From positions 310,001 to 374,000 of the forward strand of contig NZ_PIPW01000001.1 in NCBI RefSeq assembly GCF_003987215.1: a stretch of DNA of 64,000 nucleotides, in the 5' to 3' direction. The DNA comes from Pseudidiomarina halophila. Its GTDB lineage: Bacteria > Pseudomonadota > Gammaproteobacteria > Enterobacterales > Alteromonadaceae. The notes beneath the pieces are model-generated. The model was not told the origin of the DNA. It ran no database searches and saw only the letters and a list, made by a program, of their open reading frames with translations. The first letter of the stretch is position 1. Each line of letters opens with the position of its first letter. Shown piece after piece: positions 51,169 through 57,192 of this stretch. The position numbers were made by a program, and so were the translations under genes.

Positions 51169-51195
51169 TTGGACAACTAGTGATCTAGTTATAAG
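51169..51195 (+). promoter_or_regulatory. Promoter with palindrome before the cupredoxin operon
   Basis: AACTAG (51175-51180) and CTAGTT (51185-51190) are perfect inverted arms with a four-base spacer. They lie between a -35-like TTGGAC (51169-51174) and a -10-like TATAAG (51190-51195), with a 15-base spacer. An activator or repressor that binds the spacer dyad would control this promoter. It is also 28 bases before the fumC start region on the other strand. Confidence 0.45.
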
Positions 51196-51207: not shown

Positions 51208-51870
51208 ATGCGAAACTTTCAAATAGCAGCGCTGTTATTTCTTCTGGGGAGCGCTGCTGCCAATTTCAGTCACGCCCGTGAACTCACCGTACGCGTGAAC
51301 GATGAGAAGGGCGCGCCATTACCAAAAGTCATCGTATCAACCGAACATCCTGGTGCAGAATCTTCGTCGGATAACGCTGTCATGGATCAGGTCGACAGAC
51401 TATTTAAACCCTTTATTCTCACCATCAAGCCAGGTACAGCGGTAAACTTTCCAAATAGTGACAACATTCGGCACCAGGTGTACTCATTTTCGCCGGCAAA
51501 AACCTTTGAAGTGCCACTTTACAGCAATCGGGAGGCGCCGCTGATCACTTTCCCCAGTGCCGGCGTAGTGGTATTAGGTTGTAATATCCATGATCACATG
51601 CGCGCATACATTTATGTCAGTCCGCATGCTCAATCAGTGCCGACAGATGCCCAGGGAGAGGCCATCTTGGAAATAGCCGACGGCGCGACCGCAGTCAACT
51701 TCTGGTACCCCGGACTGGGTGAAAGTGCCACCGCAGAATACACGGTGGCCGTTGGCGCTGAACAGAGCTCACTGAACGTCACTTTACCGGTGACACGACA
51801 GCAACAAAACCCGCCAGAGACATCACCCTTGCAAGAGCGTTTTAACCGGCTGAAGCAGAATGTTAACTAG
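51208..51870 (+). CDS. Exported cupredoxin with amicyanin-type copper loop
   Basis: A 220-residue exported protein with a signal peptide (about 1-23, ending SHA). The beta-rich core looks like a type 1 blue-copper domain. The likely ligands are H89 (in NIRHQVYSF) and the loop CNIHDHM with C125, H128 and M131. That C-x2-H-x2-M spacing is the one of amicyanin, and homologues are often labelled methylamine-utilization protein. No methylamine dehydrogenase genes are nearby, so that role is not supported. First gene of a four-gene operon, overlapping the next by 11 bases. Confidence 0.8.
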   Translation: MRNFQIAALLFLLGSAAANFSHARELTVRVNDEKGAPLPKVIVSTEHPGAESSSDNAVMDQVDRLFKPFILTIKPGTAVNFPNSDNIRHQVYSFSPAKTFEVPLYSNREAPLITFPSAGVVVLGCNIHDHMRAYIYVSPHAQSVPTDAQGEAILEIADGATAVNFWYPGLGESATAEYTVAVGAEQSSLNVTLPVTRQQQNPPETSPLQERFNRLKQNVN

Positions 51871-54154
51871 TTTTCGCAGCAGATTATTATTGCTCTTTAT
51901 CGGCCTCGCAGGTGGGGTGTTGGTGGTGACGCTCATCGCAGTAACCGTAGCGACACAGAATCAGGCGAAACTGACAGTGGAACGCGAGTTGGTGGTCAGT
52001 GAGCGGGTATTGGGCGAGCTGATTAGTATTCGTGGCGAACAGTTGCTGCAAGCCGCTCAGGTACTGGCTGATGATTTTGGCTTCCGCGAAGCCGTAGCCA
52101 GCGGTGATCAGGATACTTTGATCTCCGCTATGGTCAATCACGGAGAACGGATTGGTACTCAGTTGATGGCCTTGTACCGGCCTGACGGTACCGAGCTGGC
52201 GACCACCCATGATTTACCTGCGATCCAGTCGATTGCTGATTTCCGCGGTATTCGCCGCGTTGATGACGAGTTGTTCCAGCTGGTTACGGTACCGGTGCGG
52301 GCGCCGGACGTGATTGCTTATGCGACGCTGGGCTTTGTAGTCGATGATGCCTTAGCGCAATCGATGAAACAGCTGACGAATGCTGATATTACTTTTTTTG
52401 ATGCCGACAGCAGCCAAATTTTTGCCTCAAGTTTACCGCTTTCCCAACGGCAGGGATTATTAGACGCAGCGCAACAAGAGCGCGTAGAGGACTGGCTTAC
52501 TGAGGGCGGTCTGGCGGGTCACTTAGCGGAATTGAACGAGGTTAATTTGTTGGTCAGTGCCTCGCGCGCAGAAGCTACTCAGGAATACCAGACCCTGCGC
52601 AGTCAGTATTTTGGCTTTGGTCTGGCAACCTTGTTAGTGGCGCTGGCTCTTGCGATTGCCACCGCTCGTCAGTTTAACAAGCCGTTAATGCGTCTGACCG
52701 CGGCCGCTGAAGCGCTGCGCCAGGGGGATTATGACGAGCCTGTTGAGCTTGAGCGCGACGATGAGTTCGGTAAGTTGGGTGAAACTTTTAATACCATGCG
52801 GGGTGCTATTGCTGAACGTGAACAACGCATTATCTATCAGCTCGAGCACGATATTCTGACGGGTCTACCCAATCGTAAATCTCTGCATCACTATCTTCAG
52901 GCGCAACTCGAGGACCAACAAAGTGGTTATGTGGTAACCATGAATATTCTGCGGTTCCGTGCGCTTAACGATCGACTTGGCCAGGGCTTCGGTGACAAAA
53001 TTCTGCAGTTGGTCGCTCAGCGCCTGAAGCAGGAATTTATGACTGATTGTTTTATTGCGCGTCTGGCGGGTGATGAATTTGTCCTGGCGTGCAATGAGAA
53101 CTTGAAAAAAGCGGAGTTACAACAGCGTTTACAACGTTTGGTAAATGAACCCTGGCAAGTTGGTGAGACCCCTTACCGACTTGAGTTTCGTGCGGGCCTG
53201 GTGCGTTACCCTGAGCAAGGGGATGAGGTTGATGCGTTATTGCGCCGGGCGCAACTGGCGGCACGGTTGGCGCAACAGAGTAAGCAACTGCTGGCGGCCT
53301 ACCAGCAGGGCAGTGACGAAGACTACATGCGCCGTTTACAAATTCTGCAAGCGCTTCCTGAAGCCATTAGTGCGCGCAAACTTAATCTCCATTATCAGGC
53401 AAAGCTTTGTTGTCGCAGCGGTGAAGTTTTAGGTGTTGAAGCCCTGATCCGTTGGCAGCATCCCCAGCTTGGTGTGATCCGTCCTGATGAGTTTATTCCG
53501 CTGGCAGAACAATCCGGCGATATCCTGCGGGTAACGCGTTGGGTTTGCGAAACCGCACTTGATCAACAGCAGTACTGGCTGGAACAGGGACGCAAATTGC
53601 AGGTGGCGATTAATTTATCAGCAATTGACTTACAGGACGAAAAGCTGGTCGAATTTATTCGACAGCAACTGGAAAAACGCAAGTTAGCGGCGGCTAATCT
53701 GACGCTGGAAGTAACTGAAAGTGCGGTAATGGCAGATCTTGAACAGGCGCAGGAGCGCTTAGCTCAGCTACGACATCTGGGCGTAAAAATCGCGCTTGAT
53801 GACTATGGCACGGGTTACGCATCATTGGCACAACTGAAGTATTTACCCGTTGACGAACTGAAGCTCGATCAAAGCTTCATCCGGGGTTTAAAAGACGATG
53901 CCAACGACCGCATTATTGTCCGCTCAACCCTACAGTTAGCCTCGCAACTGCACCTAACGACGGTCGCTGAAGGGGTGGAAGAGCAATCGGTCTGGTACCT
54001 GCTGCAGGAAATGGGTTGTGATACATTGCAAGGTTATTACTTTAGTCGCCCTTTAGCCGCACAGGAATTCGAACAATGGCTTGGCGAGCAGGCGTTAACT
54101 TTCTCTCAGCAAGCCCGGGACAGCGGAAAACAGCATGATAAAACTCTACTCTAA
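51860..54154 (+). CDS. Membrane sensor with GGDEF and EAL domains
   Basis: The 764 residues run: TM helix (8-30), periplasmic sensor region (about 31-250), TM helix (252-269), HAMP (about 270-325), GGDEF (about 326-485), EAL (about 495-745). In GGDEF the signature is AGDEF (403-407), but the metal-binding segment reads MNILRF (361-366) where DxD-F is expected, so cyclase activity is doubtful. The EAL half has EAL at 527-529, the LEVTES glutamate, DDYGTG at 647-652, LKLD near 667 and AEGVEE at 703-708, so it looks like an active c-di-GMP phosphodiesterase. The sensor faces the periplasm, where its two exported neighbours act. Confidence 0.88.
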   Translation: MLTSFRSRLLLLFIGLAGGVLVVTLIAVTVATQNQAKLTVERELVVSERVLGELISIRGEQLLQAAQVLADDFGFREAVASGDQDTLISAMVNHGERIGTQLMALYRPDGTELATTHDLPAIQSIADFRGIRRVDDELFQLVTVPVRAPDVIAYATLGFVVDDALAQSMKQLTNADITFFDADSSQIFASSLPLSQRQGLLDAAQQERVEDWLTEGGLAGHLAELNEVNLLVSASRAEATQEYQTLRSQYFGFGLATLLVALALAIATARQFNKPLMRLTAAAEALRQGDYDEPVELERDDEFGKLGETFNTMRGAIAEREQRIIYQLEHDILTGLPNRKSLHHYLQAQLEDQQSGYVVTMNILRFRALNDRLGQGFGDKILQLVAQRLKQEFMTDCFIARLAGDEFVLACNENLKKAELQQRLQRLVNEPWQVGETPYRLEFRAGLVRYPEQGDEVDALLRRAQLAARLAQQSKQLLAAYQQGSDEDYMRRLQILQALPEAISARKLNLHYQAKLCCRSGEVLGVEALIRWQHPQLGVIRPDEFIPLAEQSGDILRVTRWVCETALDQQQYWLEQGRKLQVAINLSAIDLQDEKLVEFIRQQLEKRKLAAANLTLEVTESAVMADLEQAQERLAQLRHLGVKIALDDYGTGYASLAQLKYLPVDELKLDQSFIRGLKDDANDRIIVRSTLQLASQLHLTTVAEGVEEQSVWYLLQEMGCDTLQGYYFSRPLAAQEFEQWLGEQALTFSQQARDSGKQHDKTLL

Positions 54155-54989
54155 CTTTCTTGTGAGCGGTGTGCTGGCCAGTACTATTCTACTGTGCCCA
54201 ATCGCCTATGCCGATAATGGTAAACTGCTGGGCACCGGCGCCGTAACCAGTATCGAAGGTGCTGGAGGTGGTGGCATCGTGCCCTGGGCGACCACGGCAA
54301 GTTACGCAGAGAAAGGCGAGTGGGGCTTCACTGTGAACGGGAACTTTGCTGATGTTGACGACTTTCAATTAGGAGTCCAAAGCTTAAATGCGACCTACGG
54401 CAATCGCATAGAAGTGAGCTACGCGCAGCAGCGGCTGGGCCTGAATACCATTGGTGGTGACTTAAAACAAGAAATCTACGGGTTAAAAGTACGGGTTGCG
54501 GGTGATGTGATATACGGCGATTTACCGCAGTTGAGCGTCGGTGTTCAGCATAAACGCAATACCACCTTTGCCTTGCCAGAAGCGGTCGGAGCCACCGATG
54601 ACACTGGCACCGACGTTTATGTCAGTGCGGCTAAAGCGTGGCTTGCCGGTCCTTTTGCCCGTACCTGGGTGGCGAATCTCACTTTGCGTGCGACCAAGGC
54701 AAATCAGTTGGGTTTATTAGGCTTTGGTGGTGATAAAAATGACGACTACGAGGCGATGGCCGAAGCCAGTCTCGGCATGTTTATTAACCGACACTGGCTG
54801 GTCGGAGCCGAATACCGGCAGAAACCAGATAACTTAGGTTTTGCTCAGGAATATGACTGGCGTGATGTTTTTGTCGGTTGGTTTCCGAATAAGTCGGTAG
54901 CAGTGGTGGTTGCTTATGTCGATCTGAAATCGATTGCCGGGTTGCCCGATCAAAGCGGCGCCTACGCTTCTGTACAAATTAGCTTTTAA
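54135..54989 (+). CDS. DUF3034-like outer-membrane beta-barrel protein
   Basis: A 284-residue protein with a signal peptide (about 1-26, ending AYA) and the Gly-rich LLGTGAVTSIEGAGGGGIVPW start of the DUF3034 family. It has alternating polar/hydrophobic strands and ends in Phe, which suggests an outer-membrane beta barrel. No function is established. It overlaps the GGDEF/EAL gene by 20 bases, so translation is coupled, and is followed 12 bases later by the globin gene. Confidence 0.75.
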   Translation: MIKLYSNFLVSGVLASTILLCPIAYADNGKLLGTGAVTSIEGAGGGGIVPWATTASYAEKGEWGFTVNGNFADVDDFQLGVQSLNATYGNRIEVSYAQQRLGLNTIGGDLKQEIYGLKVRVAGDVIYGDLPQLSVGVQHKRNTTFALPEAVGATDDTGTDVYVSAAKAWLAGPFARTWVANLTLRATKANQLGLLGFGGDKNDDYEAMAEASLGMFINRHWLVGAEYRQKPDNLGFAQEYDWRDVFVGWFPNKSVAVVVAYVDLKSIAGLPDQSGAYASVQISF

Positions 54990-55001
54990 TAAGGTGAGGC
55001 G

Positions 55002-55430
55002 ATGAATTACTTTGCAATTCTGCTTGCTGCGCTGGCGCTATTGCTAGGCTCAACAACCGCGCAAGCCCGCACGGATGCGTCACTCTATCAGGAGTTGGGC
55101 GCGAAACAGGGCATAAGCGATCTGATGGCGGTGTTTGTACTGGAAATCGCTCAGGACGAGCGCGTTATCCACCATTTTGATAACGTCGATATCGACCGTT
55201 TCCACCGTATGCTAAGCCAGCACTTGTGTGAACTGACCGGCGGCCCTTGTGAATATACAGGAGCTGACATGGTGGAGGTGCATACGGGGATGGCGATCAC
55301 CAGAGCCGAGTTTAATGCCATTGTTGAAGACTTAATTACCGCCATGGAAAAAGAGGGGATTGCGGTCAGCACCCAGAATCGATTATTGGCGATATTGGCG
55401 GAGTTTCATGGGGAAATTGTGGGTCAGTGA
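55002..55430 (+). CDS. Exported group 1 truncated haemoglobin
   Basis: A 142-residue 2-on-2 haem globin with an N-terminal signal peptide (about 1-22, AQA), unlike cytosolic trHbs. The likely proximal haem ligand is H94 in EVHTGMAIT. The pair C76 and C83 in CELTGGPC could form a disulfide in the periplasm. Group 1 trHbs bind O2 and NO and can carry out NO dioxygenation or electron transfer. It is the last gene of the operon and is followed by a strong terminator. Confidence 0.85.
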   Translation: MNYFAILLAALALLLGSTTAQARTDASLYQELGAKQGISDLMAVFVLEIAQDERVIHHFDNVDIDRFHRMLSQHLCELTGGPCEYTGADMVEVHTGMAITRAEFNAIVEDLITAMEKEGIAVSTQNRLLAILAEFHGEIVGQ

Positions 55431-55457
55431 TTGCGCTGCATAAGCATTGCGAATAAT

Positions 55458-55486
55458 AAAAAAGGCCGCTTCAGTAGCGGCCTTTT
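55458..55486. terminator. Terminator after the globin gene, bidirectional
   Basis: AAAAAAGGCCGCT (55458-55470) pairs with AGCGGCCTTTTT (55475-55486) around a short loop, with A and T runs on both sides. It separates the operon from the ychF 3' end on the opposite strand. Confidence 0.88.
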
Positions 55487-55505
55487 TCGATTAGAGCGTA
55501 TGCAG

Positions 55506-56597
55506 TTAAACGTTAAAGCGGAACAGAATCACATCACCGTCTTTTACGATATATTCTTTGCCTTCTTCGCGGCGTTTGCCGGCTTCTTTAGCACCTTGCT
55601 CACCTTTGTGCGTGACGTAATCGTCAAATGCCACCACGACTGCGCGGATAAAGCCTTTTTCAAAGTCGGTATGAATTTTACCAGCGGCTTGTGGCGCGGT
55701 CGCACCGATCGGAATGGTCCAGGCGCGAACTTCTTTCGGTCCAGCGGTAAAGTAGGTCTGCAAGTTCAGTAGTTCATAACCACCACGAATGACCCGGTTC
55801 AGGCCTGGCTCTTCAATACCAAGGTCGGCCATAAACTCAGCTTTCTCGTCATCATCAAGCTCGGCGATTTCCGATTCGATCTCGGCGCAGACAGGAACCA
55901 CGATTGCATCTTCGTTAGCAGCAATTTCGCGGACTTTATCTAAGTACGGATTATTCTCGAAGCCATCATCATTGACGTTGGCAATGTACATGGTCGGCTT
56001 CAGAGTTAATAAATTATACGAACGAATGGTCGCGCGCTCATCTTTAGTCAGAGCGATGGAGCGGGCCATCTCGCCATTTTCCAGCGCCGGTAACAGCTTT
56101 TCCAGCACCTGAATCTCGGCGACTGCTTGCTTGTCACCACCTTTTGCTTTCTTCGACTGGCGATGAATAGCTTTTTCAACACTGTCTAAGTCAGCCAATG
56201 CAAGTTCAGTATTGATGATTTCAATGTCGGCTTGCGGGTCAACTTTGCCTGCAACGTGGACAATATTATCGTTTTCGAAGCAGCGCACGACGTGGCCGAT
56301 AGCATCGGTTTCACGAATGTTAGCAAGGAACTGGTTACCTAAGCCTTCGCCTTTGGAAGCGCCTTTTACCAATCCGGCAATGTCGACGAACTCCATGGTC
56401 GTCGGTAGCACCCGCTGCGGATTAACGATTGCAGCCAGCTCATTTAAACGCGGATCAGGAACCGCAACCACACCAGTGTTTGGCTCAATGGTGCAGAATG
56501 GGAAGTTAGCTGCCTCAATACCTGCTTTGGTGAGGGCGTTGAACAAGGTTGACTTACCAACGTTAGGTAAACCAACGATACCGCATTTAAATCCCAT
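55506..56597 (-). CDS. ychF: Redox-regulated ribosome-binding ATPase YchF
   Basis: OBG-family P-loop protein that prefers ATP, binds 70S ribosomes and responds to oxidative stress. The ATG at 56597 gives 363 residues. P-loop GLPNVGKST is at about 8-16, [16 protein letters not shown] follows, and a coiled coil and C-terminal TGS domain complete it. The longer frame reads back into pth. It starts one base after the pth stop, the usual order. Confidence 0.97.
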
Positions 56598-56598
56598 C

Positions 56599-57192
56599 TT
56601 AATTCTCGCTCTGTGCTTTGAAACTGTGTAATTGCTGTTGTGCTGCCCGCATGTCGCCATTTATCAATAGCTCGATGCTGGTGCAGGCTTGCGTAATGGT
56701 ATCGTCCATCAGATGCTGTTCGGCAGCCGGAGCTTTACCGAGTACATAACCTGTCACTTTACTTTTATGGCCAGGATGACCGATACCAATACGTAAGCGA
56801 TGAAAGTCCGGGCTACCAATAGCCGCGGTGATATCTTTAATTCCATTATGACCGCCACTACCCCCACCGGTTTTAAATTTTGCCACACCGGGTGGTAAGT
56901 CGAGCTCGTCGTAAGCCACTAAGATTTCATCAGGTTGGATCTTAAAGAAGTTTGCAAGTGCCGCTACTGCCTTGCCGCTTTTGTTCATAAAGGTCATGGG
57001 CTCGAGTAAACGTACGTCCCAACTGCCTTTTTGCAAGCGGGCGGTGTGGCCAAAATATTTAGGTTCGGGCTGCAAGGTTTGTCCGTGTCGGCGAGCGAAT
57101 TCTTCGACCAACCAGAAGCCTGCATTGTGGCGGGTTTGCAAATATTCGGGGCCTGGATTACCCAGGCCCACGATTAAACGAATTGTCGACAT
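56599..57192 (-). CDS. pth: Peptidyl-tRNA hydrolase
   Basis: Releases peptides from tRNA after abortive translation. The ATG at 57192 gives 197 residues. The catalytic H22 lies in TRHNAGF, after the LIVGLGNPG opening. Conserved [16 protein letters not shown] and GSGGHNGIK blocks follow. The longest open frame starts in rplY and is a read-through of its acidic-tail codons, so it was rejected. It is 7 bases from rplY. Confidence 0.98.

Follow-up and report, generated by a model that had tools for sequence, protein, structure and literature searches.

A window of 64,000 nucleotides from Pseudidiomarina halophila (contig NZ_PIPW01000001.1, positions 310,001 to 374,000 of the forward strand) contains four open reading frames (ORFs), all on the + strand at 51208-55430, that encode a cupredoxin, a membrane receptor with an EAL domain, a protein of the DUF3034 family and a globin. 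These four proteins probably form a signalling cassette of the cell envelope, and we read this cassette as an envelope sensor of redox state, copper or gas that is undescribed so far. Among these signals, we lean slightly towards redox or gas. Across bacteria, the inner, signal-giving part of the receptor appears to be swapped and the outer parts appear to be kept.

The original prediction had named rare co-occurrence of the four families in other genomes as one refuting outcome, and this was not borne out, as the families stay together to a high degree. From a scan of public genomes with a DUF3034 alignment, the best 80 named loci were kept, which together with four plasmid loci gives 84 loci (L029-L112). 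The order cupredoxin, EAL receptor, DUF3034 and globin on one strand is found at 75 of the 80 named loci (75/84 including the plasmid loci); these loci were found via DUF3034, and the count thus measures the conservation of the surroundings of this gene and not the frequency of the other three genes alone. The five deviating named loci are L102, where the best-scoring EAL gene lies upstream since the expected one is fragmented, three loci truncated by a contig end (L039, L049 and L106), and L051, which is a real exception with only DUF3034 and the globin despite 9 kb on each side. The nearest named relatives among the loci listed are from Pseudidiomarina. To estimate co-occurrence, we used 396 genomes drawn evenly across Pseudomonadota, 49 of which contain DUF3034. 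With a minimum of 105 bits, the globin is present in 49/49 of the DUF3034 genomes compared to 2/347 of the others, and with a minimum of 100 bits, the cupredoxin is present in 48/49 compared to 18/347; both bit thresholds were chosen after seeing the score lists, and the raw numbers at an E value of 1e-5 are 101/396 for the globin and 92/396 for the cupredoxin. In 48/49 genomes, DUF3034 has the globin at a distance of no more than 1 kb, and in 43/49 it has the cupredoxin within 4 kb, where the latter count keeps a lower-scoring cupredoxin piece in G240 as it adjoins DUF3034; without it, this genome loses its cupredoxin within 4 kb. Within the genus of the window, the DUF3034 model PF11231 has a match in 21/26 genomes (its own genome included), and in 28/59 relatives overall.

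Other gene orders were found on plasmids. DUF3034 occurs on 13 plasmid records, four of which were inspected. Two Caballeronia plasmids have the order DUF3034-globin-cupredoxin-EAL, a third has the same order with a cut-off receptor gene, and on a Novosphingobium plasmid the set is split into two divergent pairs. The same members are thus kept in different gene orders, which argues for the four families being a functional unit. Further genes do not seem to belong to it: clustering of the ORFs around 42 of the 84 loci resulted in only two flank clusters that occur in at least four genera (one with 6 loci from 5 genera, the other with 5 loci from 4 genera), and no further recurrent partner was adopted from these flanks. 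Decaying or fragmented copies were observed in L032, L069 and L102: the receptor gene is cut off in Caballeronia, and the EAL frame is split at two loci. At G132:C3:72197-73313, a copy of DUF3034 and globin is broken up and contains stop codons.

Relatives of the cupredoxin that lie away from DUF3034 are also found beside receptors with other outputs. We fetched 92 loci (L140-L231) that were picked for exceptions and for families with other outputs, 81 of which hold the cupredoxin; at these, the output is EAL in 43, a Ser/Thr kinase in 10, a class III cyclase in 6 and a histidine kinase in 2, and 8 have a receptor without a found output, a split that owing to this choice of loci does not correspond to natural frequencies. 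By Pfam, the output is a histidine kinase in L156 and L210, a class III cyclase in L153, L202 and L209, a Ser/Thr kinase in L151, L174, L206, L208 and L221, and a hybrid histidine kinase in L157 and L158, which our domain probes had scored as 'no output found'. The cyclase of L204 lies in a second frame, and L207 ends near a contig edge. A profile made from the sensor part of the window-type receptor matches all twelve non-EAL receptors with 57 to 281 bits, and dCache_3 is over the Pfam cut-off in L153, L202, L151 and L174. DUF3034 and the globin accompany the kinase version in L206, L208 and L221; in L225, L227 and L228, they occur together with a receptor for which no output was found. On a tree of 106 cupredoxins, at least seven output changes are needed when the rows 'none' and 'stub' are left out, with 39/103 inner branches being weak. 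Judged from these comparisons, the cupredoxin and the receptor are an input module whose output can be swapped. The cassette consists of two sub-units, one made up of cupredoxin and receptor and the other of barrel and globin, and some genomes have one of them without the other. For the operon in the window, the predicted breakdown of c-di-GMP (cyclic diguanosine monophosphate) remains the likely output, as the catalytic residues of EAL are invariant. It is, however, not the essence of the system, since Ser/Thr kinases, class III cyclases and histidine kinases also occur with this input pair.

Some of these loci have additional features. The receptors beside the cupredoxin in L225, L227, L228 and L229 are stubs in which the sensor match is weak and membrane segments are present, whereas Pfam shows no output domain; the assembly of L225 is fragmented. 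In L157, the gene of a MauG-type di-haem peroxidase lies between the cupredoxin and the hybrid histidine kinase. In L141, L146 and L147, a cupredoxin relative is followed by a protein of ~400-420 aa, one of these with a weak porin-like match below the cut-off; L141 and L146 have a PKHD-type hydroxylase upstream, and L141 also has a TonB-dependent receptor.

Pfam and predicted models upheld the product types that had been read from the sequence, namely a blue-copper-like protein, a barrel-like protein, a truncated haemoglobin and a GGDEF/EAL protein with a periplasmic sensor. No Pfam or NCBIfam model matched the cupredoxin over its cut-off. We nevertheless use this label because the best PDB matches (Foldseek) of its predicted model (mean predicted local distance difference test, pLDDT, of 89) are pseudoazurin and amicyanin and because the ligands are conserved. 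H89, C125, H128 and M131 are kept in 80/81 cupredoxins of the alignment, where the 81st is gapped at three of them, and likewise in 80/81 of a second set, where the exception is a short frame in L204. With the cupredoxin fold and the type-1 ligand set of His, Cys, His and Met present, copper loading is predicted. The copper domain is followed by a CarboxypepD_reg-like domain (residues 137-193, match below the Pfam cut-off) and a C-terminal helix (residues 207-219). An alignment of 25 cupredoxins has 22 invariant positions, and the 18 of these that are not ligands are a possible docking face. Fold and ligand set are shared with amicyanin and pseudoazurin, whereas the identity over the domain is ~20-25%, the C-terminal domain and helix are extra, and the cupredoxin here is linked to receptors and not to an electron-accepting enzyme. 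This bears on the database name, as the plasmid annotation calls the cupredoxin a 'methylamine utilization protein'. Such a function in methylamine use would fit the C-x2-H-x2-M loop, which has what we take to be the spacing of amicyanin; however, the amicyanin model TIGR02657 reaches 13.9 bits compared to a cut-off of 110.2. The annotation had already been noted to lack support from nearby genes, and we regard it as almost certainly wrong. The heavy chain of methylamine dehydrogenase (PF06433) has no match in this genome, but none in the control genomes either.

In the EAL domain of the receptor, E527, N585, E617, D647, D648, K668, E704 and Q724 are invariant in alignments of 81 and of 25 sequences, and we take these eight residues to be the catalytic set for metal and substrate. 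The first metal position of GGDEF is an Asp in just 14/81 receptors. Because of these two observations, the activity of the receptor here is likely that of a phosphodiesterase, with c-di-GMP breakdown as output; its GGDEF domain is probably not an active cyclase. The receptor itself is unlikely to be a metal binder, because no Cys, His or Met in its periplasmic domain is conserved at 85% or more. By sequence, the receptor domain has one match in the PDB, which is weak and unrelated-looking. A second related dCache-GGDEF-EAL gene lies beside the operon in some Pseudomonas loci, either upstream (L081, L083, L096, L101, L102 and L104) or downstream (L105 and L108), and also in L197, as if one cupredoxin were common to two phosphodiesterases.

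The globin matches Bac_globin with 47.5 bits (cut-off of 21), and its best PDB matches are group 1 truncated haemoglobins. In the window, it has the proximal His94, Phe59 (CD1), Cys76 and Cys83, and at the positions that we take to be B10 and E11, which were placed via alignments to the Tetrahymena globin, it has Val46 and Leu71. Among 85 globins, the proximal histidine is kept in 85 and Cys76 and Cys83 in 83 each, and all three are kept in 37/37 globins of a second set. On the distal side, B10 is Leu in 67/85 and Tyr in 3/85, E11 is Leu in 74/85, and the second set has Tyr at B10 in 0/37. The haem pocket thus appears apolar, and we infer that haem is loaded. A regular expression found a lipobox in 67/85 N-termini, where inspection by eye showed that the match in L030 is false and that a lipobox in L086 was missed, whereas the globins of the window and of its Idiomarinaceae relatives have a signal peptide without a lipobox; in most family members, the exported globin is predicted to be lipid-anchored. 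Compared to HbN and the Tetrahymena globin, family and proximal histidine are alike, whereas the globin here is exported, is usually lipidated and has a cysteine pair and an apolar distal side.

These residues also bear on a rival explanation, a detoxification pair. Here, the globin would destroy nitric oxide (NO) or peroxide, the cupredoxin would re-reduce the globin, and the EAL protein would only determine at which times the genes or the biofilm state are of importance. Group 1 globins, to which the PDB matches belong, include NO dioxygenases such as HbN, and the cupredoxin could donate electrons. However, the distal pair of TyrB10 and GlnE11 that is linked to NO dioxygenation in HbN is replaced in the window globin and in most of its relatives, and the cupredoxin goes with receptors even without the globin. 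We consider detoxification quite improbable.

The DUF3034 protein, which matches its family model with 331.9 bits (cut-off of 25), has no detectable sequence match in the PDB. Its model (pLDDT of 77.6, predicted template modelling score, pTM, of 0.75) has 12 strands, and a 12-stranded outer-membrane barrel is predicted; the N-terminal Gly-rich motif region (residues 19-52) is conserved and has a low model confidence. With Foldseek, the model matches outer-membrane channels, the best match being FapF (E value of 1.2e-7), followed by others including OmpG, KdgM and a COG4313 channel. The match to FapF would be in line with a c-di-GMP-controlled system for secretion or surface polymers in which the barrel is a FapF-like exporter. 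Yet the TM-score is ~0.47 and the identity 10%, other channels were matched as well, the genetic setting is different, no secreted-fibre gene recurs nearby and the output is not always c-di-GMP. There is thus very little chance that such an exporter explains the cassette, and we rejected FapF as a functional lead, since the likeness is only that of the general class of 12-strand barrels. In the accessible parts of the literature, the mentions of DUF3034 are a legend that is otherwise about DUF3037 and a Streptomyces membrane protein.

We propose that the periplasmic type-1 copper protein would be the dedicated partner of the dCache_3-HAMP receptor and would report the redox or copper state, and that the DUF3034 barrel and the exported, usually lipid-anchored haemoglobin would supply or modulate the signal. 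The haemoglobin would meet O2 or NO near the outer membrane, its haem chemistry would shift the redox state of the cupredoxin, and the cupredoxin would dock on, or leave, the dCache_3 domain. HAMP would relay this change to the output, which here would be the EAL phosphodiesterase and thus c-di-GMP breakdown, and elsewhere a Ser/Thr kinase, a class III cyclase or a histidine kinase. The loading with copper and haem, the docking, the chain from gas over haem to copper and the direction of control are steps that we infer, and the particular chain from gas to receptor is tentative and perhaps not the one in use. An extended version, in which the receptors would be of a new class, is rather unlikely: the blue-copper protein would be the physiological ligand of dCache-type receptors and would pass a signal, either an electron or copper, from a complex of haemoglobin and barrel in the outer membrane to interchangeable cytoplasmic outputs. 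In most lineages, a lipid-anchored haemoglobin would then be located inside the DUF3034 barrel or displayed through it, and the cell would thereby sample gas or redox at or outside the outer membrane.

The main rival is copper sensing, where the barrel would admit copper or a copper chelate, the cupredoxin would report on its own loading with the metal, dCache_3 would read apo versus holo cupredoxin and the globin would have a protective or tuning role. This is suggested by the strict conservation of the copper site, by the core pair being found without globin and barrel, and by cupredoxin relatives beside possible porins in L147 and L181 (both matches below the Pfam cut-off). On the other hand, a buried type-1 site fits electron transfer better than metal exchange, the flanks of the 42/84 loci have no recurrent gene for a copper pump, a copper chaperone or a copper regulator, and copper sensing leaves the linkage of globin and DUF3034 unexplained. 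We thus consider it unlikely.

Our own reading, in which a cupredoxin and a dCache receptor are the core and the haemoglobin and barrel feed them a redox or gas signal, also has several observations against it. One genome (G132) has DUF3034 and the globin with no match to the cupredoxin. Conversely, 18 genomes have the cupredoxin but no DUF3034, such that the gas half of the chain is not present throughout. Furthermore, dCache_3 is below the cut-off in L156, L210, L206 and L221 and is not listed in L157, L158, L208 and L209, and the sensor of L221 scores better to CHASE4 than to dCache_3. At the remaining 12 of the 81 loci with the cupredoxin, no dCache receptor is adjacent, and some of these have a possible porin beside the cupredoxin instead. 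In favour of our reading, the distances between cupredoxins correlate with those between receptor domains (r of 0.80, 94 loci, 0/500 permutations), but this correlation ignores species relatedness.

In YfiBNR/TpbABC and NspS-MbaA, a periplasmic protein controls a membrane GGDEF or GGDEF-EAL protein, and YfiBNR/TpbABC also have an outer-membrane part. To our knowledge, the partners in these systems come from other families and include no metalloprotein and no globin. In HmsC/HmsD of Yersinia pestis, as described in the accessible part of a review, a transmembrane c-di-GMP enzyme is controlled by the redox state of a periplasmic protein, where HmsC acts via cysteine pairs and inhibits a diguanylate cyclase (PMC8846402). 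HmsCD is thus alike in the periplasmic redox partner of a c-di-GMP enzyme that we propose here. However, the partner in the window has a single cysteine, the copper ligand Cys125, the cysteine pair sits in the globin instead, the output is that of a phosphodiesterase, and barrel and globin are added. Globin-coupled sensors and H-NOX pairs are alike in that a haem protein signals to c-di-GMP enzymes or kinases, and the haem sensors described in that part of the review are either fused to the output or auxiliary NO sensors (PMC8846402). Here, in contrast, the globin belongs to the truncated family, is a separate exported protein and comes together with a barrel and a copper protein. The word 'copper' is absent from the main text of this review as accessible (PMC8846402), and we found no description of the cassette in the open literature, a scope outside which most subscription papers and bioRxiv preprints fall. 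The cassette works like a periplasmic-partner receptor system, yet it has the defining features of none of those tested.

The layout of the operon was confirmed by the ORF list and by RNA folding (Table 1). Cupredoxin and receptor overlap by 11 bases (51860-51870), receptor and DUF3034 by 20 bases (54135-54154), and DUF3034 and globin are separated by 12 bases (54990-55001). Because of this packing and a strong terminator, the four genes likely are one operon. Signal peptides were called by eye.

Table 1. Features of the probable four-gene operon in the window, with the basis of each assignment.
Feature	Position	Strand	Basis
Exported cupredoxin, 220 aa	51208-51870	+	ORF; predicted model; conserved ligands
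Type-1 copper domain of cupredoxin, residues ~61-137	51388-51618	+	Predicted model; ligands H89, C125, H128, M131
Membrane receptor, likely c-di-GMP phosphodiesterase, 764 aa	51860-54154	+	Pfam; conserved residues
dCache_3 of receptor, periplasmic	51977-52489	+	Pfam, 8e-10
HAMP of receptor	52661-52810	+	Pfam, 3e-13
GGDEF of receptor	52847-53284	+	Pfam, 8e-27
EAL of receptor	53348-54052	+	Pfam, 6e-76, 255 bits
DUF3034 protein with signal peptide, 284 aa	54135-54989	+	PF11231, 3.4e-99
Exported group 1 truncated haemoglobin, 142 aa	55002-55430	+	Bac_globin, 2.5e-12
Intrinsic terminator, 12-pair stem, 5-base loop, ends in T5	55459-55487	+	RNA folding compared to shuffles

The stretch of 61 nt around the terminator (55440-55500) folds with -23.3 kcal/mol (z of -4.5), and 0/200 shuffles were as stable; the terminator is absent from the output of a consensus terminator scan. 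The downstream gene at 55506-56660, which we take to be ychF-like, is convergent on the terminator, which may therefore serve both strands. On the other side, the operon has a divergent neighbour that is presumably fumC-like. No tandem repeats were found within the operon. A perfect palindrome, AACTAG-TGAT-CTAGTT, lies just 5' of the operon at 51175-51190. When up to three mismatches are allowed, it is found in 1/81 upstream stretches scanned, namely that of the window itself, and the FNR-type boxes in the upstream stretches are at background level (12 compared to 5, 6, 8, 9 and 14 in five shuffles). Upstream control via the palindrome or FNR-type boxes was thus dropped.

If true, the cassette would amount to a new mode of redox, copper or gas sensing. 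It suggests a function that can be tested both for DUF3034, a family found in 49/396 sampled Pseudomonadota genomes, and for a conserved exported haemoglobin. If the docking is true, a blue-copper protein would be a signal carrier and not the electron shuttle of an enzyme, and one input would serve four kinds of output. Among the named loci listed, the carriers include Pseudomonas, Xanthomonas, Marinobacter, Halomonas, Shewanella and Idiomarina, and the cassette may therefore matter for the lifestyle decisions of bacteria from many environments.

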